Shown one piece after another: positions 6,525 to 58,856 of a stretch of DNA of 64,000 nt; position 1 is the stretch's first letter, and each line of letters opens with the position of its first letter. The notes under the pieces were generated by a model that was not told the DNA's origin, did no database searches, and was given only the letters and a program-made list of their open reading frames with translations. The DNA is from Cymodocea nodosa. Taxonomy: Eukaryota > Streptophyta > Magnoliopsida > Alismatales > Cymodoceaceae. Both the position numbers and the translations under genes were made by a program. The stretch covers positions 4,298,001 to 4,362,000 of the forward strand of contig JAZBRI010000010.1 in NCBI GenBank assembly GCA_036874045.1. Reading direction: 5' to 3'.

Positions 6525-6525
6525 T

Positions 6526-23175: not shown

Positions 23176-23748
23176 ATGATCGGTTAGATTTCCTTCCTTC
23201 AGATCAACGGCGATGCTTCCTTCTCCATGCGCGATTGAATTCCTGCGTGATACGTGCAAACGTGGTTTTTCCTTCCAACTGTCTGTTCCTGCAACCACTA
23301 CAGTGGCATTTTAGAAAATAACTATAAAATACATGCAATAAAGAAATAAGCCGCTAACATAACGCGTTACTTTAGCGTATATTCATGTAACTCAACGCGT
23401 ACAGTTATGCTAACTTAACGAGTTATAACTTAAGTAAATCTACCAGATCTCGACATGTGTCAGCAGTAGTTAAACATAAAATAACATTTCGGAGAGTTAC
23501 AGGTATAACTATCCGATGCTCAGATGCATTTTCGGATACTTAAGAATTTCACAGCCTACACTTATCGACAGTTCATAAATGTACTAAATTAACATTAATT
23601 CCCCAAAATTAAGTAGATTCTTCAATTAAAGCATATAACAGTGCAATTATAACATAATGGCTTAATTCTCATATGATAAGCTAAATATTATGCAATTAAC
23701 CATCATTTAACCGTTAATAATATGCAATTTTTCAGTCTAAACACCAAG

Positions 23749-37273: not shown

Positions 37274-38460
37274 ATGGTTGCTCTAGTAGAAAAACCATTA
37301 AGAGAAATTCTGTATCCTGAATTAGTTGTTGAGCCTTCATGTATTCGATTGCCAAACTTTGAGGGAGATAGGTTTGAACTGAAATCTAATTATATTAGTC
37401 AATTACCACATTTTCATGGATTAGAAAGAGAGGATGCCTATTATTTCCTTAGAGAATTTAATGAAGTTTGTCAAATGATGAAAATGCCGAACATGAAAAT
37501 AGATGCTATTAAACTTAGATATATCTCTTTTTCTTTAAAAGACATAGCTAAGAGATGGTTATATACTTTGTCGCCTGATTCAATTTCTACATAGACTGAA
37601 TTTTGTTCTATTTTTCTGAAAAAATATTATCCGACACATCAAACGATTAAAAAGAAGAAAGAAATATTAATGTGTAGCCAAAAAAAGGTGAATCATTCTG
37701 GAAATATTTTGAAATATTTAAAGATTTATTGACTCAATGTCCACATCATATAATGAGTAAGGCATAATTAATAGATATAATTTATGAAGGCATAGATGTT
37801 TCAACAAAATCTTTATTAGAATCTACTTGTTAAAATGGATTTTTAAAGTTATGTAGTGAAGAAGCATGGACATATTTAGAAAACTTTGCAAAAAGAATTA
37901 CACAGTGGGAAAACTCGGCTGAAGCTATTGTAGATAAAAAAATATTGCCAAGAGGAATGCATGAAATAGATTCAAGTACTATGCTTGAGGTGAAATTAAC
38001 TGAATTAACAAAGAAAATAGAAGAGTTATCATTAAATCAAAAGCTAGCAGAAAAGAATGCAAACATAAATGATTTAGATATTATTTATGCTAGAAACTAG
38101 AGAAATAACTTGGGAAATTCTTATAATCCTAATTGGAGAAGTCACTCGAATTTATCTTGGGGAAACAACAATTTCCAAGGAGGAGAAAATGTAAATAAGA
38201 AGAAAATAAGTTATGAAGCATTAGTTGAACAAGGATCTAGAATAGAAAAATTAGAAAAGATAATCCAACAATTAAACAATCGTCTAGATTTTGTATTTGG
38301 AAATGCTACAATTCAAAATCAGAATAGAAATATACCACTTAGACAGAAGGAACCAATGGAAGTTAGACCTACTAGAGGATTGCCAATACAAGCAATACCT
38401 AACCCTGTCAATAGAACTGTAAATGAAATTGATACCTCTTCTAGGAGGGTAGCTGAATGA
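37274..38460 (+). pseudogene. gag: Capsid (Athila-type gag CA) of copy D, 3' of ORF2
   Basis: Starts ATG at 37274 (MVALVEKPLREILYPELVVE) and ends TGA at 38458. Conserved blocks as in copy A: LPNFEGDRFELKSNYISQL, DAIKLRYISFSLKDIAKRWL, KYYPTHQTIKKKKEI and NWRSHSNLSWGNNNF. TAG at 37592, a base loss near 37683 and further stops at 37766, 37831 and 38098 inactivate it. No zinc knuckle. The late part ends SRRVAE as in the other copies. Confidence 0.86.
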
Positions 38461-38652: not shown

Positions 38653-39580
38653 ATGGAATTGATGCAATTACCGTTAGATGCACTAAGGGAAGTACTAAGT
38701 AATTTATTAGCTAAAGATCTATGCAGGCTGTGTTGTGTATCAAAGGAAATTAAAGACTGTATTGAAGAAAAATATTTTCAGGGACTACAAGCTGCAAAAA
38801 TGACTAAGATTAGAGATGGATTTATATGGAGGTCATTTAATCGTAGTTCAATTAACCATGAATATCTGGCTATGGGAGAAACTACTGGAATTCCACCCAA
38901 TACATTAGAAGGAATAGATCATATTATGGGGATAGATGAAGGATTAATCATATACAAGATGAGACCAAGGTATGCAAGTCTATTACTTGATATTTTGATA
39001 AGAAATCCTATAACAAGAGAAGAATGGAATATAGGAAGACCTAATAGATATGAAGTACCAACTATAAATTGTGGATCGGCTTTAATATTTTATGATAAAA
39101 ATTCTACAATTCCTGAAAAATTATATTATTGGAGACCTACAAGAGATTGGGGTGAAGATTTACGCTTAAGTGTGTATAATTTTCTGAATAGATCTTGGAA
39201 TGAAAATATTATGATATATCTAGGACAGAAATCATAATTAACCAAACACATGTCATACTTGATGGATATATATATCTAGTCACAGATATATCAATAGCAT
39301 TTGGATCTGATTTATACATAGTGAGCATAGACAGTTATGATGAATTTATAGAAATTTTACCTATTTCGAGAGAAATAGCTAAACCACCATCTGCAGAATT
39401 TAAGAAAATTCAAATAGGAATGTGGTATAATGAATATAATGATCCTACTTTATGTCTGATAAGATGGTGGGATGAATTGATGAAATTTCAAATATGGATT
39501 ATGAAAGACATTAATGAATGGAAGTGGGAAGAGGAATATATTGAAATAGATGTAGAAATAGAAACTGCTACAATACCTTG
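38653..39580 (+). pseudogene. F-box / F-box-associated gene carried by gypsy copy D (first part)
   Basis: Starts MELMQLPLDALREVLSNLLA: an F-box (residues 6-37, LPLDALREVL...KDLCRLCCVSKEI). Residues 118-125 (NPITREEW) and the later LCLIRWWDEL and FQIWIMKDINEWKWEE match the F-box-associated interaction domain of plant SCF ubiquitin-ligase adaptors. The gene continues after copy G at 56916-57114, giving a product near 375 residues, normal for this class. A one-base loss near 39235 makes TAA at 39236; apart from that and the G insertion the frame is open. In plants such proteins join SKP1/Cullin-1 and pick targets for degradation; the target is unknown. That it lies inside a mobile element is seen directly, and copies A and G have it in the same place. 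Confidence 0.86.
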
Positions 39581-41812
39581 TGTTTGTGTTTTCCCAGCAC
39601 AACACCAGAAAAACTTGGATTTGTTACTTCTGTTTTTACTTAGTTAATTTATCTTTATGCCTATTCTTTCTCTTAGAAGTAAACAAACAACCTTTAATAC
39701 AATTTAGATATTAATTCCAATTTGTACTTTAACTGCAAGTGCATAGTGTCTATTGTATTAGTGTGCAAGTACAGGTCGATCCCACAGGGAATTGCTAAAG
39801 AACTTGAGAACTATTCGTTTGTTAATAATTAAATTTATATATTCAATAAGCTCTCCGTTGAATTACAGTTAACTCAACGGACAAAGTTTGTTGAGTTATG
39901 GCTAATACAACGGACTAACCTCATGGACTTAAATTAACTCCACGAGCCTGTCTTTTCTCTTTAATACTACCATTTACAAGGGAATTCGGCCAACCATTCG
40001 GCGATTCCACAGATTGTAAATAACATCAATTATGCTCTTTAATGTTAGTTAACATTGGATTTATCATTAGTCAATACTAACATTCAGATAATTCAAACCG
40101 TAACCATTAAAATCTTTAAGTCTTTTGAAAGAACCGATTTCAGTAAATTGTAAAACTAAAACAACATAAAACAATCACAACATTGACAAATATAACATTA
40201 ATCACGATACAACACAAACAATACAACACTTAAATACAACATACAAACATAGATAAATTGTTTTTGGTATTTTTGTTTTAATATGAACATGGAAATGGGC
40301 GAAATGTGAAATGTAAAGTAATCTCACTTGATAGTAAATACTTCTGACACTACTTGCAACGCAATTACACCATTGAAAATTAAACCACTTACAATTCTAT
40401 CTCCTCTCCCTATAGAATCACGAGTCCAGAATTGCAAGATGATCTCCTCTTCAGCATACAGGCATCAACCCGAAGCCAAGGCTAAAAGCTTTACAATCTC
40501 TTGAAATATGAGTCGACACTAGGTGAAAATGGCTTCCCTTCCCGCGACGCGATCACTCCTCACAGTGGTTGTCAAGCACTGTGTTTGGCTTGGAATCGAC
40601 CCGACATCAGGCAAGTATCCTCACAGACCTCCGATGGTTGGTGATTATGGTGGTGATGATGATGGTTGGTGTGGTACTTCAGAGAATTGCGACGTTGATC
40701 CTCCTTTGCACACGCTATCCGCCCATCGATCACACACCTCTTCTTTTTTCTTCTTTTCTTTTATATTTCTTCAGTAGTAACTGCTTCTGCTTGAATGGTC
40801 GGTTGGATTTCCTTCATTCGTATCAACGATGATGATTTCTTTCCCTACGCGATACGTGCAAACGTGGTTTTTCTCTTCCAACTGTTTGTTCCTACAACCA
40901 CTACAGTGGCATATTAGAAAATATATAGTCCGTGGAGTTACAGATAACTCAACGGACTTTCTTCGTTAATTTGACTATAAAACACGTGCATAAATTTAAC
41001 TATTCGATGCTCAAGTGCATTTCAGATACTTATAAACTTAACTATCTGATGCTTAGATGCATTTCAAATAGTTACAGATAACTCACCGATATATAACTTA
41101 AGTAAATCTACCAAATCTCGACACATGTCAGCAGTAGTTTAATCATAAAATAACATTTCGGAGAGTTACGGAGCTCACTATCCGATGCTTAGATGCATTT
41201 CGGATAGTTAGAGATAACTCACCGAAAATCCACTTAAGTCACTTTCTTAGAACATGACACATGTCCTCAGCTATTTTATAAATAAAAAGAGATTTCGAAG
41301 TGTAACAAGGCTAACTATCTGATGCCCAACTGCAATTTCGGATAGTTATAGATAACTCACCGAAAGTTCACTTTAAGTCATGCATTATGGTTTTGACACA
41401 TGTTCTTCAAGAAATAATAAAATATTCTCTCAAAACATAACTGTTCGGCAATTTAAACATAACTATCCGATATGTTCGGCCTGTTAAACATAACTATTCG
41501 GCAATTTAAACATAACTATCCGATATGTTCGATCTGTTAAACATAACTATCCGAAATATGTCCGGTATGTTAAACGTAATTGTCCAAAATATCAGAAAAT
41601 TTGGATACTTAAGAATTTCACAGCCTACAACTTACCGACAGTTCAGAAATGTACTAAATTAACATTAATTTCCTTAAATTAAGCAAATTCTTCAATTAAA
41701 GCATATAACAGTGCAATTATAACTAATGGCTTAATTCTTATATGATAAGCTAAATATTATGCAATTAACCATCATTTAACCGTTAATAATATGCACTTTT
41801 TCATTCTAAACA
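39581..41812 (-). mobile_element. 3' LTR of gypsy copy G
   Basis: 2232 bp, plus-strand TGTTTGTG...CTAAACA. It contains the antisense ORF (40523-40777), a TTGAGTT palindrome group (39855-39950) and an expanded run of TAACTATCCGATATG modules (41440-41590), in line with a length greater than the 5' LTR. Confidence 0.93.
40523..40777 (+). CDS. Antisense ORF in G 3' LTR, shortened and frame-shifted
   Basis: 85 codons, MKMASLPATRSLLTVVVKHC. The first methionine of other copies is followed by a TAG here, and after GTSEN a deletion changes the frame. A similar frame is at 55674-55925 in the 5' LTR. The decay argues against strong need for the product. Confidence 0.2.
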   Translation: MKMASLPATRSLLTVVVKHCVWLGIDPTSGKYPHRPPMVGDYGGDDDGWCGTSENCDVDPPLHTLSAHRSHTSSFFFFSFIFLQ

Positions 41813-41835
41813 CTTCCCCCATACCTAAATTTTGC
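41813..41835 (-). other. Polypurine tract of copy G
   Basis: Minus strand GCAAAATTTAGGTATGGGGGAAG, directly before the LTR start TGTTTAG. Confidence 0.9.
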
Positions 41836-43700
41836 TAGTCTAATAATATTAATTAGATCTTAGCAAACTAAGATCTAATTAATTGGTCTTTCAAAAAGTG
41901 CTAGAATTAATTCTTCCCCTTTGTTTTTCTTCTGTTTAGCATAAAAATATATTTTGTATGTTTTAGTAATCAACCTGCAAATATACTTAAAATATATGCA
42001 AATTACATACAAAGTATATCATCATCACATAAGTGTTAATTATATTATTGTTTGTTCTTCTTTTCATCATCTGTCATCCTGAATTTTCCAATAAGATTTC
42101 TAGAAGAAATTTCAACAACATACGAATCAAAGTACAATCCAATTCAATCTAATTAAGACAAGTAGAATAAAGAATTGTATCTCCATTAAACAACTTCAAA
42201 AGTCAATTCCAGATTCATATTTCAGCAATTCTAGATAACAGAAAATATACTTGATTCATAAGATATCTGTATTTCACAAAACACTTGTATCTTTTTAGAA
42301 CAGTATATGTTTTTTTTTTTTTTAAACTTTAAAAGTTAATTTGACAAGCTTGAATCATACAAGAGCTTTCTAATGTACCCATGTAACGAGCTTTCAGTCA
42401 ACAATCCCAAATCTGATCAGGATCTTAGGTTGCCAGATTTCAAGAGTCCTTGTTCAGGTCAACAATCCTTACATACCTATCTGCCCAAGTACAAAAGGCT
42501 CGTGATCAAACAAGTCAATAAACTCTCAAAATTTTCCCCTTTTTTTTTTCTTTCCTTTTTTTTTTTTTTTCAAACTACAAACACAAAACAAAACATTAAT
42601 CACATACTATATATATATGTATTTCATTAATACAGATGTAGTAAAACACCAATCTCATATAGTCCTACTTCTATCATTTACTGAAAATATGAATCCATAA
42701 CAATAAGCTCATGCTTTTTATATAGTTTAGTAAGATTTACACATAAATCATTCTACAAGTTCAATCAGTCAAATTAAATGTATCTTTAATCATATGTGTT
42801 TCATTTAATCTAGAATTCACATCTCACTCTTTCAGGACTTCAGATAATTTACTAATTTTTCATTAAGCATTCTGATTTCATTTTAAAATCGTGAAACTGT
42901 TAAACTCATGAAATTCAGAAAAAAAAACATAAGATACTATATCTAGATTTGCATAAATAGTAAATTCAATAGCATCTTATATAACCTTCTAAATATAACA
43001 TTCAAGCAGTTTATAAAAATTTTACAGTCTCAATTATCAGATAGTTACAGCAAGTTCATAAAAATTTTCAATTTCCTCAAAACTTTGCAGTACCATTTTA
43101 ATTCCTTTAATTAACAAACTTACATGGTTGTTACTTCAATTACCTCCCCCCCATACCTACATTTTGCATTTCCCTCAATGTAATAGATTTAACAAAAAGT
43201 ACAGTAATTGAAGTAGGCTTGGCTACAGGTTTGTTGATTTAAATTCAAGATGAGTAATTAGTTACATACCTTGTTTCATTTGTATCTCCTTCTGCATATT
43301 TCAATTTTTGATTCTGAAAAACTTTTCATTCTCAAATAAACACAGAATATATAACAAAATAACATTTAACAGATATTAATAAATCAGTGTCTTGTGTGGA
43401 ACCCAGGCTCCTATGCCTTTAGTGGCTCACAAGCAAGCCAATTGGTTTCTCCAAACAAATACCAACAAACTGGATTGATATTTTGTTTTTGTTTTTTTTA
43501 TAAAATAAAAATGAAAACAAATTTTTTTTTTTCTCTAAAAATAAATGTAGAATACATACAACATTAAACACACAAAATCACAGCTTAAGAACATGATTGA
43601 AAAGTGGAAACAAATGGAATAAACGTGTTAGTCTAAGCAAACTTTTTAGGCATAGTTCTTCTTGCTATTAATTCTATTTTAATGTAGTTCTTGTTCCTTC
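41836..43700 (-). other. 3' UTR of copy G with a second polypurine tract
   Basis: AT-rich, with poly(T) runs near 42310 and 42540. At 43143-43167 the minus strand reads GCAAAATGTAGGTATGGGG followed by more G and AGG, nearly the same as the terminal tract 1.3 kb downstream. No coding sequence is supported. Confidence 0.65.
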
Positions 43701-43707
43701 TTAATTT

Positions 43708-44720
43708 TTAAACATGTAATATATTATAAATTCCAAATACAAGTGTATTACCATTAATGATATGAAATGTAGAAAGGGATGCTTTTCGGTTCCAAGGTAA
43801 TGTAGCAGTTTCTATTTCTACATCTATTTCAATATATTCCTCTTCCCACTTCCATTCATTTATGTCTTTCATAATCCATATTTGAAATTTCATCAATTCA
43901 TCCCACCATCTTATCAGACATAACGTACGATCATCATATTCATTATACCACATTCCCATTTGATTATATCAAATTCTGCAGATGGTGGTTTAGCTATTTC
44001 TCTCGGTATAGGTAAAATTTCTATATATTCATCATAATTGTCTATGCTCACAATGTATAAATCAGATCCAAATGCTATTGATATATTTGTGACTAGATAT
44101 ATATATCCATCAAGTATGACATGCATGCTATTAATTAATGATTTCTGTCCTAGATATATCATAATATTTTCATTCCAAGATCTATTTAGAAAATTATACA
44201 CACTTAAGCGTAAATCTTCACCCCAATTTCCTGTAGGTCTCCAATAATATAATTTTTCAGAAATTGTAGAATTTTTATTAGAAAATATTAAAGCCAACCC
44301 ACAATTTATAGTTGGTACTTCATATCTATTAGGTCTTCCTATATTCCATTCTTCTCTTGTTATAGGATTTCTTATCAAAATATCAGGTAATAGACTTGCA
44401 TACCTTGGTCTGGTTCTGTATATGATTAATCCTTCATCAATCCCCATAATATGATCTATTCCTTCTAATGTATTGGGTGGAATTCCAGTAGTTTCTTCCA
44501 TAGCCAGATATCCATGGTTAATTGAACTACGATTAAATGACCTCCATATGAATCCATCTCTAATCTTAATCATTTTTGCAGCTTGTAGTCCTTGAAAATA
44601 TTTTTCTTCAATAGAATCTTTAATTTCCTTTGATACACAACACAGCCTACGTAGATCTTTAGCTGACAAGTTACTTAGTACTTCCCTTAGTGCATCCAAC
44701 GGTACTTGCATCAATTCCAT
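43708..44720 (-). pseudogene. F-box / F-box-associated gene carried by gypsy copy G
   Basis: Starts at ATG 44720 (MELMQVPLDALREVLSNLSA) and is open for 268 residues. F-box at residues 6-37, NPITREEW and RPNRYEVPTINCG follow, then YLVTNISIAFGSDLYIVS and PPSAEF. A small indel near 43962 shifts into the frame WWDELMKFQIWIMKD, ending at TAA 43708, about 35 residues before the end of copy D because a TAC became TAA. It lies 188 bp after the capsid stop, with a splice-acceptor-like ATACAG nine bases before the ATG. Likely role if functional: substrate adaptor of an SCF ubiquitin ligase. Confidence 0.87.
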
Positions 44721-44908
44721 TTGTCGATTCTGTATAACACAAACAAAAATTTAGTAGAGACAAAATTAACATAACTACTACACACCCTCGTGGAGTTAAG
44801 GCATAACTCATTGGACTAAGTTCGTTGAGTTAAGGACTAACTCTACGATACTATTAACTAAAAATAAAAACATATATACATACAGATAGTTGCTTCAGAT
44901 ATGCTGCT
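44721..44908 (-). promoter_or_regulatory. Capsid to F-box interval with donor and acceptor signals (copy G)
   Basis: Minus strand has CTATCT|GTATGT near 44888 and an acceptor-like TGTTATACAG ending at 44730, with a palindromic module between. Same layout as copies A and D. Confidence 0.4.
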
Positions 44909-46096
44909 TCATTCAGCTATCCTCCAAGAAGAGGTATCAATTTCATTAACAGATCTATTGACAGGGTTAGGTATTGCTTGTATTGGCAATCCTCTAGTAG
45001 GTCTAACTTCCATTGGTTCCTTCTGTCTAAGTGGTATATTTCTATTCTGATTTTGAATTGCAGCATTTCCAAATACAAAATCTAGACGATTGTTTAATTG
45101 TTGGATTATGTTTTCTAATTTCTATATTCTAGATTCTTGTTCAATTAATGCTTCATAACTTATGTTCTTCTCATTTATATTTCCTCCTCCTTGGAAATTT
45201 TTATTTCTCCAAGATAAATTCGGGTGATTTCTCCAATTAGGATGATAAGAATTTCCCAAGTTATCTCTCCGGTTTCTAGCATAAATAATATCTAAGTCAT
45301 TTATGTTTGCATTCTTTTCTGCTAGCTTTCGATTTAATGATAACTCTTCTATTTTCTTTGTTAATTCATTTAATTTCACCTCAAGCGTTGTACTTGAATC
45401 TATTTCATGCATTCCTCTTAGCAATATTTTTTTATATGCAATAGCTTCAATCGAATTTTCCCACTGTGCAGTTCTTTTTGCAAAGTTTTCTAAATATATC
45501 CATGCTTCTTTACTACATAACTTTAAAAATCCATTTTGACAAGTAAATTCTAATAAAGATTTTGTTGAAACATCTATGCCTTCATAAATTATACCTATTA
45601 ATTGTACTTTACTTATTGCATGATGCAAACATTGAGTCAATAAATATTTAAATCTTTCAAAATATTTCCAAAATGATTCACCCTATTTTTGGCTACACAT
45701 TAATATTTCTTTTTTCTTGTTAATCGTTTGATGTGTTGGATAATATTTTTCAAGAAAAATAGAGCAAAATTTAGTCCATGTAGAAATTGAATTAGGCGAT
45801 AGAGTATATAACCATCTCTTAGCTGTGTCTTTTAAGGAAAAAGGGATATATCTAAGTTTAATAGCATCTATACTCATGTTCGGCATTTTCATCATTTGAC
45901 AAACTTCGTTAAATTCTCTAAGGAAATAATAGGCATCCTCTCTTTCTAATCCATGAAAATGTGGCAATTGACTAATATAATTAGATTTCAGTTCAAACCT
46001 ATCTCCCTCAAAGTTTGGCAATCAAATATATGAAGGTTCATCAACTAATTCAGGATATAGAATCTCTCATAATGGTTTTTCTACTGGAGCAGCCAT
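44909..46096 (-). pseudogene. gag: Capsid (Athila-type gag CA) of copy G, 3' of ORF2
   Basis: Starts ATG 46096 (MAAPVEKPL), ends TGA 44909-44911. Blocks: LPNFEGDRFELKSNYISQL, LEREDAYYFLREFNEVC, DAIKLRYIPFSLKDTAKRWL, KYYPTHQTINKKKEI and NWRNHPNLSWRNKNF. Stops near 46066 and 46022, a TAG near 45682, and another near 45122. No zinc knuckle. The NWRNHPNLSW block in standard Athila gag lies after the knuckle, so the knuckle was lost from between two gag parts here. Confidence 0.87.
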
Positions 46097-47108
46097 TTCT
46101 ACGTTCTCTTTTAAAGAAAGGTTAGCTACACCCCAAAGAATTTCGTTAAAGTTCAGTTTAGAAAATTTTTCAGTACTCCTCTGCGATGAAAGTTCCTAGG
46201 TAGGTGTTCTTACTAATCGTTTAGTGCTAGGAGAATGAGTCCATGTGCTCATAAATAAATAGGAGAAGATTAATTACATACCAGTCTGATGCTTTCCATT
46301 CAATAAATATTTGTTGTCGGATGAAGTTGAATCAGCTGCTTCTCCTTCCAGTTCCTCCAATGCATTCTCCTTTCTTTTAAAAGTGCTGGTAACTCATAAA
46401 TAGCATTCTGTTTTATATATATACTGCACATTCATAAAGTGAATAAATCTCGTTGCAAGACACGTTCTTGCAACGTGCATCGTGGTTCCTATTTTTATGG
46501 GTACGTGTACCACTACTAATTTCAAATTTTGGTAACCGTTAAATTGACGAAGTTTCGCTCGTGGTTAAAAGAATAACCGTTTTGCTTAATCCACGAACTA
46601 ACCTCGTTGAGTTACAGATAACTCAATGGAACATAGTCGGTTACTGTTGCTAACTCCACGGACTAACTTTGTTGAGTTAACACTTGGCAACCTCTAAGTT
46701 TTACTCTCGTAAGTTCCTCTTTGCTTTTTTTTTTCTTTTTCATTCTACTAACTGAAATAAAGTTAAATCTATGTCATTAATGCATCATTCTGATTAAAAT
46801 TCGTTTAAATCTGAACATTATATAAAGATTTAACTTGCAGGTCATTTTATGTTATGCAGAATTTATATTTTACCTTGCAACATGCAAAACTTTTTAAACA
46901 TTTATCCTGCCATTCAGCAAATTGTAAATCTGTTAAACATTCTTTCATAATATTTCACAAAATATATATAACAGTCAATACATTCCATTCATTTTCACAT
47001 CCAAAACACGTATGAAAATTGCATTTGAAAAATTTACATTCATTAATATGAATCAATTTCATTACAAGTACATCATACAATTTTACACAAGTAGACGAAC
47101 AATACAAT
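46097..47108 (-). other. ORF2-capsid spacer of copy G
   Basis: Palindromic TTGAGTTA/TAACTCAA cluster (46600-46690), the small leader frame (about 46530-46330) with one stop, donor-like GTATGT at 46281 and acceptor-like CATCGCAG ending at 46191, then AT-rich sequence next to ORF2. Confidence 0.5.
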
Positions 47109-49332
47109 TTATTCACAATGCCTAAGTTCATCTACTTCCTTCTGGAGTTTTTCTAATTGAAGCTCTAATTGATTAATTCTTTCTACAACTCCTGTAATGC
47201 CTCCAGAAGGTACAGCTATCTCTGTAGCTACAAAATTTCTGTATTCTTTCACTGAAATGGTTCTAGATCTGATCCTTTTTGATGCCCATTTCATGAAATC
47301 AATACAGTCCACCATCAGCAGTGGAATCAAATCTCCATAAAATAATTTCTTCTCCACTATTTTCAGCTTGGAGATAAAAACTGCAAACCAATTTATTTAG
47401 ATCTTATTTACAACTAAATATGTGGCCCATTTGACAAATTGACTTAATTCTATGTCATGGCCCTATCGTTGATCGACATTCTTAATCAGAATGTTAGCTA
47501 CCATGTGTGCTTTACCATTTAAATGCTTCAATATGTTTAATAATGGCACATTAGGATTGATAGCTAAACAATCCTTAATTTCCTGTTCAGTCCACTCAAC
47601 TGCAGTTGTATCTTCCAAAATTTTTATTCCTTCATTTTTTAAACCAAAAATGTTGTCGAGTAGCTCTAGTGTTATCTGTACATCAGCTTCCTCCATGTTT
47701 GAAATTAATCCTCCTTCTCCTTCTCTTAAATTTACATAAAAATAGGGCACTAAATTCTCATATACTGCATGCCCTCTTTCTTGAGAAATGAATTGCAGTA
47801 GACCTTGGAATTCAAATAAATCTTTGATTTCTTGCATTCCATCCCAATTTACTGGTCTACTATAAATAATGTCATAACCCCTTATTTCTTGGTATTTAGT
47901 ATAAGCTTCCTGACTACAAAAATGTACTTCATTCAAAATTGTTGTTTTAGTTAGGTAAGGAAGGTGACTTTGTTATTCCAGAGGGGTTTGCTCTTGCTCT
48001 TCCTCTTCTATAGGCTGCATTTGAACATTTTATATAGATTCCTGAATTTCTATTTCTATTTGTGGTGGTGAGCCGACAGAACTCTCCACTCTGTCTTGAA
48101 TTCTCTCCATAAATTGCCGAAGAGTTTCTTGCTCTTCAGTGGACTTTGTGAAATTATTTTTGTCCAAATGGCTCCTTTCAGCCTCTTCATTTTCTGCTCT
48201 TTCTTTTCCTCTTGACTACCAATCTGTTCTGTTACTGTTCTTTCTGATTCTGTAATAGATTGGGATGGAGTCACGGGAAATTCAATTTCTGCCCTAATTT
48301 CTGTTCTTCCTTCTTGTACAAATTGTAGACTAATTTCAGCCTGATTTTCTTCTTTTCTTTGCTCCTGCTGCTGCAGCTCCTCCTGCTCCTCCTTAAAATC
48401 AGATAACAGGTTAATAAAAAATTTCTCCACAGGCCCTGTAAAAATTGGTACTTCAGATTTAATTTCTTCATATTTAGGCACTTTTTCTTTTCTTTTCTTT
48501 TTTCTGATTAGTTGTGCATGTTCTTCCTCTTCATATTTTGAAATTAAATCTACAAAAGTAGGCTCTGCAGGCCATCAAGCCACAAGTACTGGCTCTTCCT
48601 ATTTAACTCTTTTTATAACTGCTGGTCTCAAAGGACCAGCCTCTCCTATAGCACTTGATTTAGTTGCTGCCTGATACTATTCAACTTTTATTTTGTATTG
48701 GACCCTTATCCTTTCTTCGACCCTTTTTTTCTTAATGGCATCATATAAAATATGTGCCTTAGCCGTAGCTATCTCTTGAGTATCACCTTGGTCTCTTCTG
48801 TCTTGACCAAGCTAGTAAATTCTTTCTCTTCTTCTTCAGTTCTCGGCCAAGCAAATGCAACTCGTGGCAATAGTTCTGTTGGCTGAACTGGAGGTCCTAA
48901 CTGCTATTCCTCAGGAACAGGTCTTTCAGCAGTTGGTTCCTCCTGTTCTTTAGTTGCCTCTTCTTCATTTTCTTTCCTTTCTTGCTCCCAGATCGCCCAT
49001 CTAGCTCGTCTACAGATTCGTCTTTTGAACCAAAGCCGGGACTTACGTTGGATTAATTCTAGGGCTACTTCATTGTTTGGTCGTATCTTTCTTTCTATAC
49101 TTACTGCAATTTCAGTTGCCACTCTAATTCGTGTCTCCATTATCTGTGGTATCTGTATTTCTAACTCAACCAAAACTTTCCTCAAGTTAAAGAGTTCTGA
49201 TTCTACCTTTTGTAGCTCTTTCTCACTTGTTGTATTCCGGATCTTTTGCCACGTGTGCCATTCTTTAGATTCCTTCAAAAACTATGCAGTGTCCATTACC
49301 TCTTCCCAGAATTCAGGCGACATCTTCCTCAT
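47109..49332 (-). pseudogene. ORF2 of gypsy copy G (env-position ORF)
   Basis: From ATG 49332 (MRKMSPEFWEEV) to TAA 47109. N-terminal coiled coil (SEKELQKVESELFNLRK) and basic LWFKRRICRRARW; acidic and E/Q-rich middle (48780-48000); C-terminal block EAYTKYQEIRGYDIIYSRPV, LFEFQGLLQFISQERGHAVY, LLDNIFGLKNEGIKI, LNGKAHMVANIL and EKKLFYGDLIPLLMVDCIDF, with a final coiled coil. Stops at about 49288, 48904, 48572 and 47398, and a few frame slips. The conserved block is shared with the S2 extra ORF. No enzyme motif is seen; role unknown. Confidence 0.78.
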
Positions 49333-49709
49333 CATGGAGTTACACAACAACACAGAATCGCTTTGATTTCTACTATTCTAGATTCTAAATGATTTGCCGG
49401 ATAATGCCCCCAAAACCCTAGGTTTTATTTTAAATAAGCCCTAAGTTTAGGTGGGTAATCGGGTCATTTCCTGATCCAACTATTACTATTTTATCCACAG
49501 TCTTAGCTATAGTACTCTATTGAGTTATAGTTAACTCAATGGAATAAGCTCATTGACTAACTCAAGACTCAACGGAGTAAGCTCGTTGAGTTAAGCATAA
49601 CTCAATGGACTCCCCGTACAAACAAATATAAAAATAAAAATACTATAGATAATAGTTTTTTTGTTTTATTATCAGTATAACCGATACTATGTTTCGGTCA
49701 GACCTAAAA

Positions 49710-49741
<32 letters not shown>

Positions 49742-49926
49742 CCGATTGAACCAATACTATGTTTCGGTAAAACCAACATTTTTTCTAAAAATTAATATAC
49801 TTATTTTTTAATGTTCCGGTCATACCGATGGATCTAGTCGGTTGAACGACAACGATTTTTATATTTTATATATATGTATATATATATATATATTTTTTTT
49901 TTTATAAATATAAAATTGATTTCTTA
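49333..49926 (-). repeat. Pol-ORF2 spacer of copy G with CCGA motifs and long poly(T)
   Basis: Contains TTGAGTTA palindromes (49510-49610), CCGATACTATGTTTCGGT motifs (49680-49770), a poly(T) run of about 30 bases (49711-49741) in place of part of the repeat seen in A, and an (AT)n run at 49860-49890. No gene. Confidence 0.65.
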
Positions 49927-51250
49927 CTAAGTAAAGCTCGAGTAGTCCTCTACTCTAACTTCTTCTATAATTCCAAAGGAGCTTTTTGATGTTTTCAGAA
50001 TAGGTTTCAGTCTTTGTCCATTTACTTTAAATATATTCTGATTTTTAGGATTTTCAATTTCAATAGCTCCATAAGGATAAATATTTCGAACTATGTAAGG
50101 TCTTGCCCATCTAGATTTTAATTTTCCCGGATGGTTATGGAGTCTAGCCATATAAAGATATACTTCTTGTCCTATTTCAAAGCTTTTTGCAATAATTTTT
50201 CTATCATGCCAAAATTTAATTTTTTCTTTTTCTCTTACAGTCTTCAAATAAGCTTCATTTCTAAATTCTTCTAATTTAATTAATTGCATTTTTCTATTTT
50301 CAGCAACTTGATTTAAATTAGTGTTCAGAGTTTTTAATGCCCAATAAGCTTTATGTTTTATTTCAGTAGGTAAATGACAACTTTTTCCATATACTAGCCT
50401 AAAAGGTGACATACCTAAGCTCGTTTTATAAGCAGTTCTATAAGCCCAAAGTGCATCTATCAATCTATTAGCCCAATATGTTCTAGTAGGATTTACTACT
50501 TTTCTAAGATTAACTTAATTTGTTTGTTAGCACTTTCTACTTGTCCACTTGTTTGCAGATGATATGATGTTGCAATTTTGTGGTTTATTCCATATTTCTT
50601 CATTAAGGCTTCAAAACTTCTATTACAGAAATGAGTTCCTCTATCACTGATAATAGCTTTAGGTATTCCAAATCTAGCAAATATTTTGGTTCTTATAAAT
50701 TGTATTACCACTTTGTTGTCATTAGTTTTTGTAGGAATAGCTTCTATCCATTTAGATACATAATTCACCCCCAATAATATGTAATTAAATTGATTAGACA
50801 TAGGAAATGGACCCATAAAATTTATTCCCCATACATCAAAGATTTCAACCTCAACAATAGGATTAAGAGGCATCATATTCCTCTTTGATATTCTTCCTAT
50901 TTGTTGACATCTTAAACAACTCAAGCAATATTTATGAGAATCTTTGAATAGTGTTGGCCAATTAAACCCACATTGTAGAATTTTTGCAGCAATTTTCCCT
51001 GAACCAAAATGCCCTCCACAAGCTTGGTCATGACATAAAGATAATATGCTCGGATATTTAGTTTCTGGAACACACCTCCTTAAAACCAGATTAGGGCATT
51101 TCTTAAATAAGTATGGATCTTCCCAATAGTAATATTTTACTCTTGAGAAAAACAATTTCTTATCCTGTCTATTCCAATCCTTAGGTGTTAGACCAATAAC
51201 TAAATAATTAACTATGTCTACATACCAAGGTGTTGTGTTGATGGTCATTA
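49927..51250 (-). pseudogene. pol: Integrase of gypsy copy G
   Basis: From about 51250 to TAA 49927. Zinc block CHDQACGGHFG...CLSCLRCQQIG; core VWGINFMGPFPMSNQF, IISDRGTHFCNRSFEAL and SGQVESANKQI; C-terminal [20 protein letters not shown]. The first catalytic Asp of the D,D-35-E triad is Asn (codon 50820-50822, where copy A keeps GAT), so this integrase should be inactive. Also one frame break near 50495. No chromodomain. Confidence 0.92.
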
Positions 51251-52689
51251 ATTGTTCATTAAGAAAATTATCCTTAATTTCAATATTTGATTTTTCTATT
51301 TGTAATCTTGATAAATGATCTGCTACTACATTCTCACAACCTTTTCTATCTTTAATTTCTAGATCAAATTCTTACAATAATAATATCCATCGGATCAATC
51401 TAGGTTTAGTTTGTTTTTTCTTTATTAGATGTTTTAGAGCTGAATGATCCGTGTATACTATTACTTTAGCTCCAATCAGATATGATATAAACTTTTCTAA
51501 AGCAAACAAAACAACTAATAATTCTTTTTCAGTAGTTGTGTAATTAACTTGAGCATCATTTAAGGTTTTGCTTGCATAATAAATCACTCTAGGAGATTTT
51601 TCTATTTTTTGTCCTAACACTGCTCCTACAGCAAAATCAGAAGCATCGCACATTAATTCAAATAGATAGTTCCAATCAGGTGCTTGAATTATAGGAGTTG
51701 AAATTAAGCTAGTCTTAAGTTTGAAAAATGCTTCCTTACAATTTTTATCAAAGTTAAATGGAACATTTTTTAATAGATTAGTTAAAGGTCTAGCTATCTT
51801 GCTAAAGTCTTTAATAAATCTTCTATAAAAACTAGCATGTCCTAGAAATGATCTAATATCTTTTATTGATTTAGGTTTTGTTAGATTAGAAATTACTTCT
51901 ATTTTAGCTTTATCTACTTCCAACCCTTTCTTAGAAACAACATGCCCTAAGACTATTCCTTGTTTAACCATGAAGTGACATTTTTTCCAATTTAAAACCA
52001 GATTTTTTTCCACACAGTGTTTTAATATTAAGTCTAAATTTTTTAAACAGAGTTCATATGAGTTTCCATATACAGTAAAATCATCCATAAATATTTCTAA
52101 AAAATCTTCAGTCATTCTAGTAAATATGCCTTACATACACCTTTGAAAAGTAGCTAGCGCATTGCATAATCCGAATGGCATTCTCTTAAAAGCATAAGTT
52201 CCATTAGGACAGGTGAAAGTTGTTTTCTCTTGATCTTCTAATGCTACTAGAACTTGGTTATATCCTAAATACCAATCTAGGAAACAAAAATATTCTTGCC
52301 CTACTAATTTTTCCAGCATTTGATCTATAAAAGGTAAGGGAAAATGATCTTTCCTAGTTACAGCATTCAGCATTCAGCTTCCTAGAAGGCATTCAGCATT
52401 CAGCTTCCTAGAAGCCTGATTGAATTCTAGTAGGTATCAAGTCTTGACTTTCATTCCAAATAACTGTTGATCTTGATTTCTTGGGAACTACATGGATTGG
52501 ACTAACCCACGAGCTACCAGAAATCGGATAAATTATGTCATTATCTAACCATTTAACTATTTCCTTCCTAACTACTTCTTTAAGGTTTGGATTTAATCTC
52601 CTCTCAGGAATTCTAACGGGTTTAGAATTCTCTTCTAAATATATGTGGTGACAGCATAAAGTTGAACTTAACCCTTTTATATCAGTCAT
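51251..52689 (-). pseudogene. pol: Reverse transcriptase and RNase H of gypsy copy G
   Basis: From 52689 (MTDIKGLSSTLCCHHIYLEE) through PERRLNPNLKEVVRKEIVKW and SSWVSPIHVVPKKS, to catalytic [11 protein letters not shown] (near 52088), [11 protein letters not shown], then RNase H with [33 protein letters not shown] and [10 protein letters not shown]. At 52368-52412 the sequence for the conserved RVCIDYRKL block is replaced by a short tandem duplication of CATTCAGCTTCCTAGAAGG. Stops are at about 52128 and 51374. Otherwise the frame is better preserved than in copy A, including the CGA codon mutated to TGA at 12643. Confidence 0.92.
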
Positions 52690-53592
52690 AGTTCATCCTA
52701 TTGCTTCTTTATAACTTTTTACTACATCTTTTAATTTAGCTCTTTGATCCTCTTTTAAATCTGAAGTAATAATGATTGCACAGGTTCATTTATCTTCCAG
52801 AAATATATAGGTTAATTCAGGAGGTAAAGGTTTTAATTCTAAATGTTGCCCATCAGAAGCTAAAGCTCCTAATTGAACATCATCATCTTTTAAATAAATT
52901 TCTTCCATATCTCCTTCTATATTTATGCTTTCACTTTCTTCTAAAGTTTCAGAATTGATTTGCCTATTTAATTCTTCTTGAATCACATCATCTAACATAT
53001 CTCCTTCATCCTCTAAAAAGTCTATGGTATGTAAGGACATTTCTAATTCCTTAAACCTTTCTGGTTTGAAAATATTTAATTGAGTATCCTCATTACCATA
53101 TGCTAATTTCATTACTCTAGTTTTACAATTTATAATAGCCCCTGATGTTGCTAAAAATGGCCTTCACAAAATTAAAGATGTATGACTATTTTTATGCTTA
53201 ATTTGTTGGGAATCCAAAATTACAATATCAATAGGATATATAAAGTTTTTGATTTTAATTAAGACATCTTCTATTTTTCCTCTAGGGTATCTTATACTTC
53301 TATCAGCTAATTGAATAACTGTACTAGTAGGAGTTAAGCTTTCTAATCTTAAGGAAGCAAATATATCACTTGGCATAACATTTATACCTGCACCTAAGTC
53401 TATTAAGGTTCTTTCTAGAATGGTATTTCCTATGGTGCGTGATATAACAGGGATTCCAGGATCAGATAACTTTTTAGGAATTTGTGGCAGAAATAGGAAA
53501 CTACTTTGCTCAGCTAAAAAGACCTTTCTAAGAACTTTTCGCTCTCTTTTCTTAGTACACCAATCCTTAAGAAATTTAGCACAAAGTGGCAT
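52690..53592 (-). pseudogene. pro: Protease region of gypsy copy G
   Basis: 53592-53164 is open: MPLCAKFLKDWCTKKRERKV, then the active site LIDLGAGINVMPSDIFASL and IEDVLIKIKNFIYPIDIVIL. The GRPFLATSGA block follows across a stop at about 53163 (CGA-type to TGA), and 53112-52786 encodes the acidic linker MKLAYGNEDTQLNIFKPERF. The stop TAG just upstream (53593-53595) matches the one in copy A. Confidence 0.87.
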
Positions 53593-54640
53593 TTTCTACA
53601 ATAGATCTAATAAAGGAATGTTAACTTGTACTTTTTAAAAAATTTCTCTGATTTTTTCTTATTTTTAAGGTATTGTTTGTTGTAATCTTTCAAGATAGGG
53701 TGCTAAAGATTTTGATTTCAAAGATTCTTTTTCTTTCAATTGATTTGTCTGATCATTTTTAGCTTCATTAGCAAATTCAAACTGTTCTTCAGTGATTTCT
53801 AGATTTTCAGCTATTACATTTTCATTATCATTTTGATTTTTACTCTTATCCACCTTCATATTATTTTCATTTTGAGTTCTTGGTGGTATATCAGTTCTAG
53901 ATCTTAATGTTACACATACATCTTCCAGATTTTCGTTACTCTCATGATGTTTTTGTATATCATTTTCGTGATTATGATCTTCAATTGTTTTTAATTTTAA
54001 AGTGCATTCTTTAAATTCTCTTGCATTAGTATTTTCTGTTTGCTGTATATTTTGCAAATTATGTAGGTTTATAACATTATAATTTTCATTGTCCTATTGC
54101 ATAACTTGTATTTTCATTGTATATTCGTCTAATGCTTTTAATTTTCTTTCTAGATCATCCAATTTCATTGCATTCAATTTTTGTTCAATTTTCATTATGG
54201 TTTTTTCATTTTCGTAAATTATATCCTTTTTAGGTTCTAAATATGCTTCTTTATAATTTAATTGGTTGACTTCTTGTTGCTGACACATAAAGTATTCCAA
54301 TTTGTGCAGGTTTTACTCTATACTACGCTCTAGTCTGTCATACCTATCCCAAACTTCAGTGTCTCTCAACATGTACACATTCTATACTGACCATCAGTTG
54401 GGTAAACTGTAGGATTCTCATACTCGGATCTATTATACTAAGGGTAATTCATTTGTTGTTCATGGGATCTAACCATCTGTAAACGTCTCAATTTCAAACA
54501 GTCAGAAATGTTGTGTCCTTCAGAATTGCAGAATTCACATATGCTAATTACAGGTTTCAGAAATCTTTGAGCATAAGCATATGCTATATTCTCAATTACA
54601 GAAGAAAACACACAACTCTCGCTATTAAAACGAAACAACT
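53593..54640 (-). pseudogene. gag: Gag nucleocapsid region of gypsy copy G
   Basis: Zinc knuckle CEFCNSEGHNISDC (CX2CX4HX4C) about 140 bp after the primer site, so here too no capsid domain can fit 5' of it. Then the basic/charged linker, RNQKIQ-like coiled coil and CVTLRSRTDIPPRTQNENNM. Stops near 54436, 54315, 54095 and 53660, and TAG at 53593-53595, the last shared with copy A. The start codon is unclear: the ATG of copy A is ATA. Confidence 0.82.
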
Positions 54641-54707
54641 CTAACAGATGCTTATATTAATTCAATTCTATCCAGTTCAGTTCAATTCAATTCAATTCAA
54701 TTCAATT

Positions 54708-54724
54708 CCCTAGCAACGGCGCCA
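54708..54724 (-). other. Primer binding site of copy G, tRNA-Asp type
   Basis: Minus strand TGGCGCCGTTGCTAGGG, 7 bases from the LTR end, close to the Athila consensus. Confidence 0.92.
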
Positions 54725-54731
54725 TAAAACT

Positions 54732-56910
54732 TGTTTGTGTTTTCCCAACACTACACCAGAAAAACTTGGATTTGTTACTTCTATTTTTACTTAGTTAATT
54801 TATCTTTATGCCTATTCTTTCTTTTAGAAGTAAACAAACAACCTTTAATACAATTTAGATATTAATTCCAATTTGTACTTTAACTGCAAGTGCACAGTGT
54901 CTATTGTATCAGTGTGCAAGTACAGGTCGATCCCACAAGGAATTGCTGAAAAACTTGAGAACTATTCGTTTGTTAATAATCAAATTTATATATTCAATAA
55001 GCTCTCCGTTGAATTACAGCTAACTCAACGGACAAAGTTTGTTGAGTTATGGCTAACTCAACAGACTAACCTCGTGGACTTAAATTAACTCCACGAGCTT
55101 GTCTTTTCTCTTTAATACTGCCATTTACAAACGAATTCGGCCAACCATTAGGCGATTCCACAGATTGTAAATAACATCAATTAAGCTCTTTAATGTTAGT
55201 TAACATTGGATTTGTCATTAAGCAATACTAACATTTAGATAATTCAAACTGTAACCATTAAAATCTTTAAGTCTTTTGAACGAACCGATTTCAGTAAACT
55301 GTAAAACTAAAACAACATAAAACAATCACAACATTGACAAAGATAACATTAATCACGATACAACACAAACAATACAACACTCAAATACAACATACAAACA
55401 TAGATAAATTGTTTTTGGTATTTTTGTTTTAATATGAACATGGAAATGGGCGAAAGGTGAAATGTAAAGTAATCTCACTTGACAGTAAATACTTCTGACA
55501 CTACTTGCAACGCGATTACACCACTGAAAATTAAACCACTTACAATTCTATCTCCTCTCCCTATAGAATCGTGAGTCTAGAATTGCAAGATGATCTCCTC
55601 TTCAGCATACAAGCATCAACCCGAAGCCAAGGCTAAAAGCTTTACGATCTCCTAAAATATGAGTCGGCACTAGGTGAAAATGGCTTCCCTTCCCGCGACA
55701 CGATCACTCCTCACAGTGGTTGTTAGGCACTGTGTTTGGCTCGAAATCGACCCGACATCAGGCAAGTATCCTCCCAGACCTCCGATGGTTGGTGATTATG
55801 GTGGTGATGATGATGGTTGGTGTGTTACTTTAGAGAATTGCGACACTGATCCTCCTCTGCACACATTGTCCGCCCATCGATCACACACCTCTTCTTTTTT
55901 CTTCTTTTCTTTTATATTTCTTTAGTAGTAACTGCTTCTACTTGAATGGTCCGTTGGATTTCCTTCATTCGTATCAACGGTGATGATTTCTTTCCCTATG
56001 CGATACGTGCAAACGTGGTTTTTCTCTTCCAACTGTCTGTTCCTGCAACCGCTACAGTGGCATATTAGAAAATATATAGTCCATGGAGTTACAGATAACT
56101 CAACGGACTTTCTTCGTTGATTTAACTATAAAACACGTGCATAAATTTAACTATTCGATGCTCAAGTGCATTTCGGATACTTATAAACTTAACTATTCGA
56201 TGCTTAGATGCATTTCGGATAGTTACAGATAACTCACTAATATATAACTTAAGTAAATCTACCAGATCTCGACACGTGTCAGTAGCAGTTTAATCATAAA
56301 ATAACATTTTAGAGTGTTACGGAGCTAACTATCTAATGCTCAGATGCATTTCGTATAGTTAGAGATAACTCACCGAAAATCCACTTAAGTCACTTTCCTA
56401 GAACATGACACGTGTCCTCAGCTATTTTATAAATAAAAAGAGATTTCGGAGAGTTACAGGGCTAACTATCTGATGCCCAACTGCAATTTCGGATAGTTAT
56501 AGATAACTCACCGAAAGTTCACTTAAGTCATGCATTATGGTTTCGACATGTGTAATTCAGGAAATAATAAAATATTCTCTCAAAACATAAATGTTCGGCA
56601 ATTTAAACATAACTATCCAATATGTTCGGTCTATTAAACATAATTGTCCGAAATATGTCCGGTATGTTAAACAAAACTGTTCGAAATACCAGAAAATTTG
56701 GATACTTAAGAATTTCACAACCTGCAACTTACCAACAGTTCAGAAATGTACTAAATTAACATTAATTCTCCCAAATTAAGCTAATTCTTCAATTAAAGCA
56801 TATAACAGTGCAATTATAACATAATGGCTTAATTCTCATATGATAAGCTAAATATTATGCAATTAACCATCATTTAACCGTTAATAATATGCACTTTTTC
56901 ATTCTAAACA
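54732..56910 (-). mobile_element. 5' LTR of gypsy copy G
   Basis: 2179 bp, plus-strand TGTTTGTG...CTAAACA; counterpart of 39581-41812, a little shorter because it has fewer TAACTATCCGATATG modules near 56600. Contains the antisense frame 55674-55925. Followed by CCTTG (56911-56915). Confidence 0.93.
55674..55925 (+). CDS. Antisense ORF in G 5' LTR
   Basis: 83 codons, MKMASLPATRSLLTVVVRHC, same truncated form as in the partner LTR (40523-40777), so the change predates the insertion of G. No known family. Confidence 0.2.
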   Translation: MKMASLPATRSLLTVVVRHCVWLEIDPTSGKYPPRPPMVGDYGGDDDGWCVTLENCDTDPPLHTLSAHRSHTSSFFFFSFIFL

Positions 56911-57114
56911 CCTTGGAATCAAAAAGGATCCCATTTTGCATTTCATATCATTAATGGTAATACACTTGTATTTGGAATTTATAATATATTACACGTTTAC
57001 AAATTAAGAAGGAACAAGAATTGCATTAAAACAGAATTAATAACAAGAAGAACTATGCCTAAAATGTTTGCTTGGACTGATACATTTGTTCCTACTTTTA
57101 AATCATGTTCTTAA
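56911..57114 (+). pseudogene. F-box gene of gypsy copy D, C-terminal part after copy G
   Basis: After the second CCTTG copy the D frame continues: HIINGNTLVFGIYNILHVYK, then a basic stretch and MPKMFAWTDTFVPTF, ending TAA at 57112-57114. The INGNTLVFGIYN pattern is the late part of the F-box-associated domain. It matches 43790-43708 of copy G but runs about 35 residues further, showing the likely full C-terminus of the family product. Confidence 0.82.
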
Positions 57115-58833
57115 GTTGTGATTTTGTGTGTTTAATGTTGTGTGTATTCTATGTTTATTTTTAAAAAAATTTGTAGTTTTCATTTTTATTTTATAAAAGA
57201 AAAAAAAACAAAATATCAATCTAGTTTGTTGGTATCTGTTTTGGGAAACCAACTAGCTTGCTTGTGAGCCACCAAAGGCATAGGAGCCTGGGTTCCACAC
57301 AAGACACTGATTTATTAATATTTATTAAATGTTATTTTGTTTTATATTTTTCTTTTATCTGTGAATGAAAAATTTTTCAGAATCAAAAATCGAAATATGC
57401 AGAAGGAGATACAAATGAAACATGGTGTGTAACCAATTACTTATCCTGAATTTTAAATCAAAAAAACTGTATTCATGCCTGCTACAATTACTGTACTTAT
57501 TGTTAAATCTTTTACATTGAGGACAATGCAAAATGTAGGTATGGGGGGGAGGTAATTAAAGTAACAGCTACGTAAGTTTGTTAATTAAAGGAATTAAAAT
57601 GGTACTGCAATGTTTTGTGGAAATTGAAAATTTTTATGAACTTGCTGTAACTATCCGATAATTGAGATTGTAAAATTTTTATAATCTATAACTACTTGAA
57701 TGTTATATGTTATATGTAGAAGGCTATATAAGATGCTATAGAATTTACTATTTATGCAAATCTAGATCTAGTATCTTATGTTTTTTCTGAATTTCATGAG
57801 TTTAACAGTGTTACGATTTTAAAATGAAATCAAAATGCTTAATGAAAAAAAATTATCTAAAGTCCTGAAAGAGCTGAGATGTGAATTCTAGATTAAATGA
57901 AATACATATGATTAAAGATACATTTAATTTGACTGATTGAACTTGTAGAATGATTTATGTGTAGATCTTATTAAACTACAGAAAAAGTATGAGCCTATTG
58001 TTATGGATTCATATTTTCAGTAAATGATAGAAGCAGGACTATATGAGATTAGTGATTACTGCATCTGTATTAATGAAATACGTACATATACAATATGTGA
58101 TTAATGTTCTTGTTTTGTAAAAGAAAAAAAAAAAAGAAAAAAGAAATTTTTTTTTGAGAGTTTATTGACTTATTTGATCACGAGCCTTTTGTACTTGAGC
58201 AGATAGGTATGTAAGGATTGTTGACCTGAAAAAGGACTCTTGAAATCTGGTAACCTAAGATCCTGATCAGATCTGGGATTATTGACTGAAAGCTGATTAC
58301 ATGGGTATATTAGAAAGCTCTTGTATGATTCAAGCTTGTCAAATTAACTTTTAAAGTACAAAAAAAAAAGAAAAAGAAACATATACTATTATGAAAAGAT
58401 ACAAGTGTTTTGTGAAATACAGATATCTTATGAATCGAGTATATTTTCTATTATCTAGAATTAATGTAATATGAATATGGAATTGACTTTTGAAGTTGTT
58501 TAATGGAGATACAATTCTTTATTCTACTTGTCTTAATCATATTGAATTGGATTGTACTTTGATTCGTATGTTGTTGAAATTTCTTCTAGAAATCTTATTG
58601 GAAAATTCAGGATGGCAGATGATGAAAAGAAGAACAAACGATAATATAATTAACACCTATGTGATGATAATATACTTTGTATGTAATTTACATATATTCT
58701 AAGTATATTTGCAGGTTGATTACTGAAACATACAGAATATATATTCTTATGCTAAATAGAAAAAAAAGGGAAGAATTAATTCTAGCACTTTTAGAAAGAC
58801 CAATTAATTAGATCTTAGTTTGGTAAGGGACTA
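57115..58833 (+). other. 3' UTR of copy D with a second polypurine tract
   Basis: AT-rich, no gene. At 57528-57553 lies GCAAAATGTAGGTATGGGG extended by more G and AGGT, a near copy of the terminal tract (58834-58856). Poly(A) runs are near 57195, 58125 and 58361. The part from 58007 matches the left fragment of copy A. Confidence 0.7.
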
Positions 58834-58856
58834 GCAAAATTTAGGTATGGGGGAAG
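58834..58856 (+). other. Polypurine tract of copy D
   Basis: GCAAAATTTAGGTATGGGGGAAG directly before the 3' LTR. Confidence 0.9.

Follow-up and report, generated by a model that had tools for sequence, protein, structure and literature searches.

The GAG-POL proteins are considered enough for the transposition of long terminal repeat (LTR) retrotransposons (PMC7264820), and the domains of gypsy elements are expected in the order GAG-PROT-RT-RH-INT, elements with an unexpected order having been removed in one survey (PMC6317226). Orchid Ty3/gypsy elements carry a captured AlkB RNA demethylase, and the same study covered 121 angiosperm genomes and 15 domains, among which PMD, G-patch, AIR1, DUF1409, YgdH, L26, B3, ArgoL2 and 2-ODD are named (PMC9289625). 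Plant viral suppressors of silencing use F-box-like motifs on SKP1 (PMC6784205, PMC6593998). Here we describe a family of Ty3/gypsy elements from Cymodocea nodosa that carries a gene predicted to encode an F-box and F-box-associated (FBA) protein and that has, in the elements examined, its capsid gene behind pol. It came to light in a window of 64,000 nucleotides (contig JAZBRI010000010.1, positions 4,298,001 to 4,362,000 of the forward strand; assembly GCA_036874045.1).

Plant elements with extra open reading frames (ORFs) or captured genes are already known; in the present family it is the F-box domain and the gene order that appear to be new. Among the matches listed in the open-licence literature, none describes a resident F-box gene for an LTR retrotransposon, and none a capsid behind pol; both are weak negatives. 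Neither feature is described in the examined parts of PMC7264820, PMC11963269, PMC12062965 and PMC13317346, and the term F-box has no occurrence in PMC9289625, PMC7264820, PMC11963269, PMC6317226 or PMC13317346.

An F-box gene carried by a Ty3/gypsy family

The window consists of nested LTR retrotransposons, three of which (A, D and G) hold copies of the F-box gene. Element G is complete (39581-56910, minus strand), with paired LTRs that are 92% identical when gaps are included (119 substitutions in 2178 aligned bp) and with a target duplication, CCTTG, at 39576-39580 and 56911-56915. Its insertion point lies inside the F-box gene of D.

54732-56910, minus strand: 5′ LTR of G
39581-41812, minus strand: 3′ LTR of G
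43708-44720, minus strand: F-box/FBA gene of G, interrupted by a frameshift and an early stop
38653-39580, plus strand: first part of the F-box/FBA gene of D, with a 1-bp frameshift near 39235
56911-57114, plus strand: last part of the F-box/FBA gene of D, past the G insertion
19468-19763, plus strand: fragment of the F-box gene of A, the first 296 bases of the gene

Most of the original prediction for these copies is borne out: an F-box ORF occurs in A, D and G, both LTRs and the CCTTG duplication of G surround the gene, and homology joins the two parts of the D gene that G has split. The A fragment had been placed at 19468-19790, and although the gene is present there, homology stops at 19763. 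The Pfam scan, which covered D and G, matches PF00646 above the gathering score in the G ORF at 43914-44720 (minus strand; E = 4.2e-8) and in the D ORF at 38653-39237 (plus strand; E = 8.9e-9), and the A fragment is homologous to the F-box gene over its 296 bases. All three window copies of the gene are damaged, each by separate lesions: D by its frameshift, G by its frameshift and by an early stop shortly before the end, and A by one stop and truncation.

The FBA blocks that had also been claimed are recognized in relatives elsewhere in the genome but not in the window itself, where the Pfam scan gave no match to the FBA part and TIGR01640 scored the C-terminal piece of D at 23.5 bits (E = 2.9e-5), below the cut-off of 37.9. 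Among seven relatives tested, TIGR01640 is above its cut-off in four (L041, L035, L038 and L031) and below it, as in the D piece, in L002, L053 and L024; FBA_1 is above its cut-off in one of eight sequences tested (L035). PF00646 also exceeds its gathering score in L002, L024, L038 and the N-terminal piece of L031 and falls below it in L041; L035, L053 and the C-terminal part of L031 are represented by pieces that start behind the F-box. In the open relatives the predicted protein is 378 amino acids long, with an N-terminal F-box followed by an FBA domain. As judged from its sequence, the gene product is an F-box and F-box-associated protein of the plant substrate-adaptor type, which selects the proteins that a plant cell degrades. 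PDB sequence searches returned nothing significant, scans of viral contigs with the F-box protein and with the reverse transcriptase (RT) found no relatives, and a fold prediction of the G ORF from a three-row alignment gave no usable fold (mean pLDDT, 30).

A search of the whole genome (374,616,459 bases in 28 contigs) with the G protein yielded 6039 first-look candidates, and all 143 that were scored match: G itself at 100% identity and the others at 83-92%, many without a stop within the match. The A and D copies are absent from these 143, so the list is only partial. Loci were taken for the best 30 of the 143 matches (L001 being G), and the frame is open to its natural end, at 378-379 codons, in four of them (L002, L011, L016 and L024). 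Two runs of a genome search with TIGR01640 yielded 1638 and 1636 first-look candidates, and 145 of the 150 scored match; comparison by eye of this list with that of the G protein found no common place. The host element family is, on these genome searches, very abundant.

Complete elements containing the gene occur outside the window as well. The L002 element has 152 mismatches in 2311 aligned LTR columns (6.6%) and the duplication AGTTG, and the L014 element has 133 mismatches in 2166 columns (6.1%) and a duplication in which four of the five bases are equal; with G, three complete elements carry the F-box gene. At L011, L016 and L024, LTR sequence is present on the 3′ side and none was found at the expected 5′ place. 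A capsid match was found for 28 of the 30 loci of the G-protein search and, within 3.5-3.7 kb, for 16 of 24 loci from the TIGR01640 list; one of the eight loci lacking it, L032, has an RT fragment nearby instead. For 42 of the 54 loci, sufficient sequence of both genes is available, and there the distances of the F-box gene and of the capsid correlate (Mantel r = 0.891, P = 0.001, 999 permutations). The F-box gene is part of the element and is co-inherited with the capsid, in keeping with the earlier claim, based on G, that the gene moved with its element.

Proposed action of the gene and selection on it

We tentatively propose, at a little less than an even chance, that this accessory gene of a Ty3/gypsy element encodes an F-box/FBA adaptor, presumably captured, that recruits the SCF ubiquitin ligase against a target, most likely a host restraint on the element. 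The F-box protein would be translated from a spliced short mRNA, as suggested by a T-rich stretch ending in TATACAG or similar 9 nucleotides (nt) before the ATG (in G, the acceptor-like stretch at 44730-44752 on the minus strand); the predicted acceptor is the TATACAG itself, just before the ATG, and 22 of 32 distinct copies have TACAG 8-12 nt upstream of the start. The F-box would then bind host SKP1 and make the element protein part of an SCF ubiquitin ligase; the choice of a putative target, whose removal aids the element, would fall to the FBA domain. This target might act in RNA silencing, in methylation, or in restriction of the capsid or of integration, a host restraint being the leading guess by analogy with the viral F-box-like suppressors.

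Under a codon model, the F-box gene has an omega (dN/dS) of 0.374 over 53 copies, a sample selected by F-box protein similarity and so biased to low F-box omega. The capsid has 0.397 in 40 copies, and three pseudo-frames from the 3′ untranslated region (UTR) have 0.67-0.85 in 46 copies. With singletons masked, the corresponding values are 0.363, 0.396 and 0.61-0.81. In 12 deep pairs with L002, analyzed with an uncorrected method, omega is 0.31-0.58, and eight of the pairs fall below the noncoding range of 0.45-0.81; the L002-L044 pair, at 52% identity, has an omega of 0.31 (0.22-0.43). Nei-Gojobori dN/dS for the window copies was set aside and carries no weight here, since noncoding pseudo-frames also give 0.45-0.81.

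Several observations, beginning with this sampling bias, weigh against a selected adaptor. Because selection of copies by similarity biases omega, the cleanest test uses F-box codons 262-378, which lie outside the searched stretch, in the 30 loci of the G-protein search; omega there is 0.545 (0.36-0.80 in 12 bootstraps), in the expected order relative to the capsid (0.447; 27 loci) and the pseudo-frames (0.61-0.82; 28 loci) but overlapping the latter. The window copies alone have a neutral-corrected omega of 0.68-1.0, which is nonsignificant, and the L002-L031 pair, at 37% identity, has an omega of 0.58 (0.41-0.78), within the noncoding range. The three dated elements are not young, their LTRs being 5.5-6.6% diverged, and the acceptor-like site is not conserved above its surroundings. 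The dN/dS comparison gives a divided answer: the 53 copies lie below the UTR pseudo-frames, but the window copies and codons 262-378 are not separable from noncoding DNA.

Frame preservation was assessed from frame-breaking indels, counted on the best alignment for each locus. Codons 262-378 of the F-box gene contain 5 in 10.5 kb (0.48/kb) and the capsid 20 in 32.0 kb (0.62/kb), as against 132 in 28.1 kb of 3′ UTR (4.70/kb) and 57 in 7.7 kb of spacer (7.43/kb). The make-up of UTR and spacer alone may raise their indel counts, and parity with the capsid is therefore the stronger half of the argument; the scarcity of indels in F-box codons 1-254 was left out of account, the copies having been chosen by that stretch. 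The F-box gene and the capsid are preserved in frame to about the same degree. Judged on these sequence comparisons, it is most likely resident and selected, and no passenger. The earlier claim of an adaptor-type gene resident in the element stands to this extent: the gene is of F-box/FBA type, co-inherited and kept in frame.

Stops recur at identical codons across many copies (L001-L054, F-box and capsid frames), and the changes TGG to TAG, TGG to TGA and CAG to TAG account for 65 of the 108 F-box stops (53 loci) and for 99 of the 159 capsid stops (47 loci). This pattern suggests decay of methylated copies. A test of singleton against shared changes was dropped: the F-box N/S was 3.5 versus 1.79 (P = 0.03), but one of two UTR control frames shifted likewise (P = 0.02), and the alignment was disturbed by nested insertions.

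Displaced capsid and gene order

The remaining features of the window elements are as follows.

54708-54724, minus strand: primer-binding-like site of G, TGGCGCCGTTGC..., 7 nt inward of the 5′ LTR
54067-54611, minus strand: ORF region at the 5′ end of G, carrying a CX2CX4HX4C zinc knuckle and no capsid domain, stop-broken; from translation and homology to A 9442-9993
49927-53595, minus strand: pol of G (protease [PR], RT, RNase H and integrase), broken; from ORFs and domain matches
48056-49281, minus strand: ORFs of G with a low-complexity or coil look, between pol and the PF20167-like ORF, without significant family
47463-47972, minus strand: ORF of G in the PF20167 position; its A homologue has a weak PF20167 match (E = 0.0089)
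45122-46179, minus strand: capsid ORF of G (Retrotrans_gag), downstream of pol; PF03732 in the G piece at E = 0.0023, below cut-off
41813-43707, minus strand: 3′ UTR and purine tract of G, homologous to D 57115-58855
37190-38460, plus strand: capsid ORF of D, broken; from homology to A and G
58856-60880, plus strand: 3′ LTR of D
7400-9336, plus strand: LTR on the 5′ side of A
9463-12645, plus strand: zinc-knuckle ORF, PR, RT and RNase H of A, stop-broken
18050-18751, plus strand: capsid ORF of A (PF03732, E = 2.9e-18)

The family has the PR-RT-RNase H-integrase order of Ty3/gypsy elements: the integrase ORF of G matches rve and Integrase_H2C2, and the A ORFs homologous to G pol match RVT_1 and RT_RNaseH, with the A protease matching Asp_protease_2 below its cut-off (E = 0.0008). 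Paired LTRs with 5-bp target duplications, likewise expected of Ty3/gypsy elements, are found in G and the L002 element; in the duplication of L014, four of the five base pairs are equal. The site TGGCGCCGTTGC, presumably complementary to tRNA-Asp, also follows the 5′ LTR of the L002 element and occurs in a variant form in the L014 element. A purine tract stands before the 3′ LTR of G.

The order that Athila and other OTA elements have, with gag upstream of pol, is not found in the elements examined. Between the primer-binding site and PR, the A, G, L002 and L014 elements have an ORF starting MAYAYAQRF or similar (9463-9990 in A, 54067-54611 in G), with a CX2CX4HX4C zinc knuckle whose last cysteine is altered in the L002 and L014 copies. 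The capsid had no match in any of these four 5′ ends, including a tblastn comparison of G 54067-54611 with two capsid queries at E < 0.5. In A and G the capsid instead follows pol, after the ORFs of coil look and the weakly PF20167-like ORF, and the F-box gene comes next; in L002 and L014, where the comparison covered the 5′ end and the surroundings of the F-box gene, capsid sequence lies directly upstream of that gene. The original placement of the F-box ORF downstream of the capsid ORF therefore holds in all three window copies; in A and G the capsid in turn follows pol. From the ORFs and domain matches, gag is split in A, G and the loci L067 and L068, with a zinc-knuckle ORF that lacks a capsid at the head of the pol frame and the capsid displaced behind pol. 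The G copy of the ORF at 47463-47972 did not itself match PF20167, and as a reference this ORF has an NG86 omega of 0.27-0.37; the Pfam scan of the D capsid piece at 37190-37591 gave no match.

A diverged family (L031, L055:8754-9900 and L056:3-1600) has a related F-box gene in another position. Its order is a protease-like stretch, an integrase-like end, the F-box gene and then gag, consisting of capsid and zinc knuckle, so that the F-box gene lies on the opposite side of the capsid relative to the window family. In the genome search with TIGR01640, L031 scored highest. The names protease and integrase here denote resemblance to the window elements, and the LTRs are unbounded; RT was not matched in 19.8 kb of the L031-family element. 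That element is broken, being interrupted by a copia-like insertion and having a frameshifted F-box gene, and its gene order is therefore a reconstruction. The placement of gag behind pol may, from these sequences, be no one-off.

As to origin, it is a distinct possibility, short of probable, that the L031 family independently captured another host F-box/FBA gene, which would make two captures in the lineage: the order integrase end, F-box, gag in L031 differs from capsid, F-box in the window family, and F-box identity between the two is 34-37%, as opposed to 55% for the capsid. Both F-box genes nevertheless align over 364 codons. The fuller version of our proposal, that a gypsy lineage with its capsid behind pol has long kept an SCF adaptor, in two diverged families at the least, by which a defence protein of the host is tagged for degradation, is possible and is put forward with reserve.

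Other arrangements in the window concern the LTRs and neighboring elements. At 6525-9336 a 3′ UTR-LTR stretch continues directly into the 5′ end of A and looks like one LTR common to two elements, an arrangement of tandem or recombinant look. An LTR at 21944-23744, 94% like that of A, adjoins about 1.9 kb of inner DNA (20018-21943) unlike that of A, so elements with such an LTR need not all carry pol and the F-box gene. The LTRs (39581-41812 and relatives) contain tandem repeats whose units measure about 136 bp or 31-53 bp. The minus-strand ORFs at 5669-6526 and 20151-20636 are homologous to each other, belong to another element and have no significant family match. A tRNA-Asp prediction (anticodon atc; 25712-25797, minus strand) inside a copia pol ORF (25062-26948) is probably a false call.

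Candidate targets and comparison with known systems

With the usual fixed Gag:Pol coupling gone, the element's own proteins are the chief rival target. By controlled destruction of Pol, NC-Pol or capsid, an F-box adaptor aimed at these proteins could adjust the proportions between them or bring a transposition cycle to a close. The capsid is missing at four of four 5′ ends (A, G, L002 and L014), by which that coupling is lost, and the F-box gene adjoins the capsid and is inherited with it, but the literature matches listed, from searches that had other aims, contain no precedent, and we consider self-targeting unlikely. More doubtful is that the F-box alone acts as a decoy, occupying SKP1 and weakening host SCF ligases without delivering a target. 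The F-box does score well, and the title of PMC6593998 describes P0 as stabilized by SKP1 binding, so that contact with SKP1 can serve ends other than delivery; the FBA part, however, is kept too, with few frame-breaking indels in codons 262-378 (where the omega of 0.55 is indecisive), and is still recognizable in L031 at 34-37% identity. A functionless passenger, in which a host F-box gene was transduced and then multiplied by copying, would agree with the background-like omega of the three window copies and of codons 262-378 and with the transduced gene pieces known in plant elements (PMC7264820), but is very improbable given about 10-fold fewer frame-breaking indels than in flanking noncoding DNA (as few as in the capsid), the omega of 0.37 over 53 copies and the related gene in a diverged family, and its travel with the element, high copy number, co-inheritance and preserved frame together make a passenger unlikely.

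If the preferred reading, an SCF adaptor directed at a host restraint, is true, the family would represent a retrotransposon-coded, ubiquitin-based counter-defence. The answers of LTR elements to host silencing are little known, and a selected F-box adaptor in a high-copy element would be a concrete protein with a biochemical handle, SKP1 binding followed by a target search. The split, displaced gag raises the question of how the capsid:Pol ratio is controlled. Surveys that drop unexpected domain orders, as in PMC6317226, would have discarded such elements.

Among the nearest comparisons are the Athila-type (non-chromovirus OTA) gypsy elements, which share with the window family the RT-RH-IN order and extra ORFs between pol and the 3′ LTR, and whose proteins those of the window family presumably resemble. 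Unlike them, the window family has its capsid downstream of pol and possesses the F-box gene. As for counter-defence, the viral P0 and p22 differ from full plant F-box/FBA proteins, and VANDAL is a DNA transposon. Polerovirus P0 and crinivirus p22 are, like the element protein, parasite-coded and bear an F-box motif, but theirs is an F-box-like motif that contacts SKP1, with a reported effect on silencing (PMC6784205, PMC6593998); such an effect of the element protein is a proposal. VANC of VANDAL transposons is a transposon-coded counter to host silencing and thus an analogue of the proposed role, differing in that its anti-silencing is sequence specific and involves no F-box (PMC5735166, PMC10398659). 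Retand elements resemble the window family in their long region with extra ORFs between pol and the 3′ LTR; the known domains there are antisense (TRP28, Smc and others) and the sense ORFs have no known domain, in contrast to the sense capsid and F-box genes described here (PMC11963269). The orchid AlkB elements are, like the F-box family, large plant gypsy elements with a host-type protein as an extra ORF and a proposed role against host control, and they carry another domain (PMC9289625).

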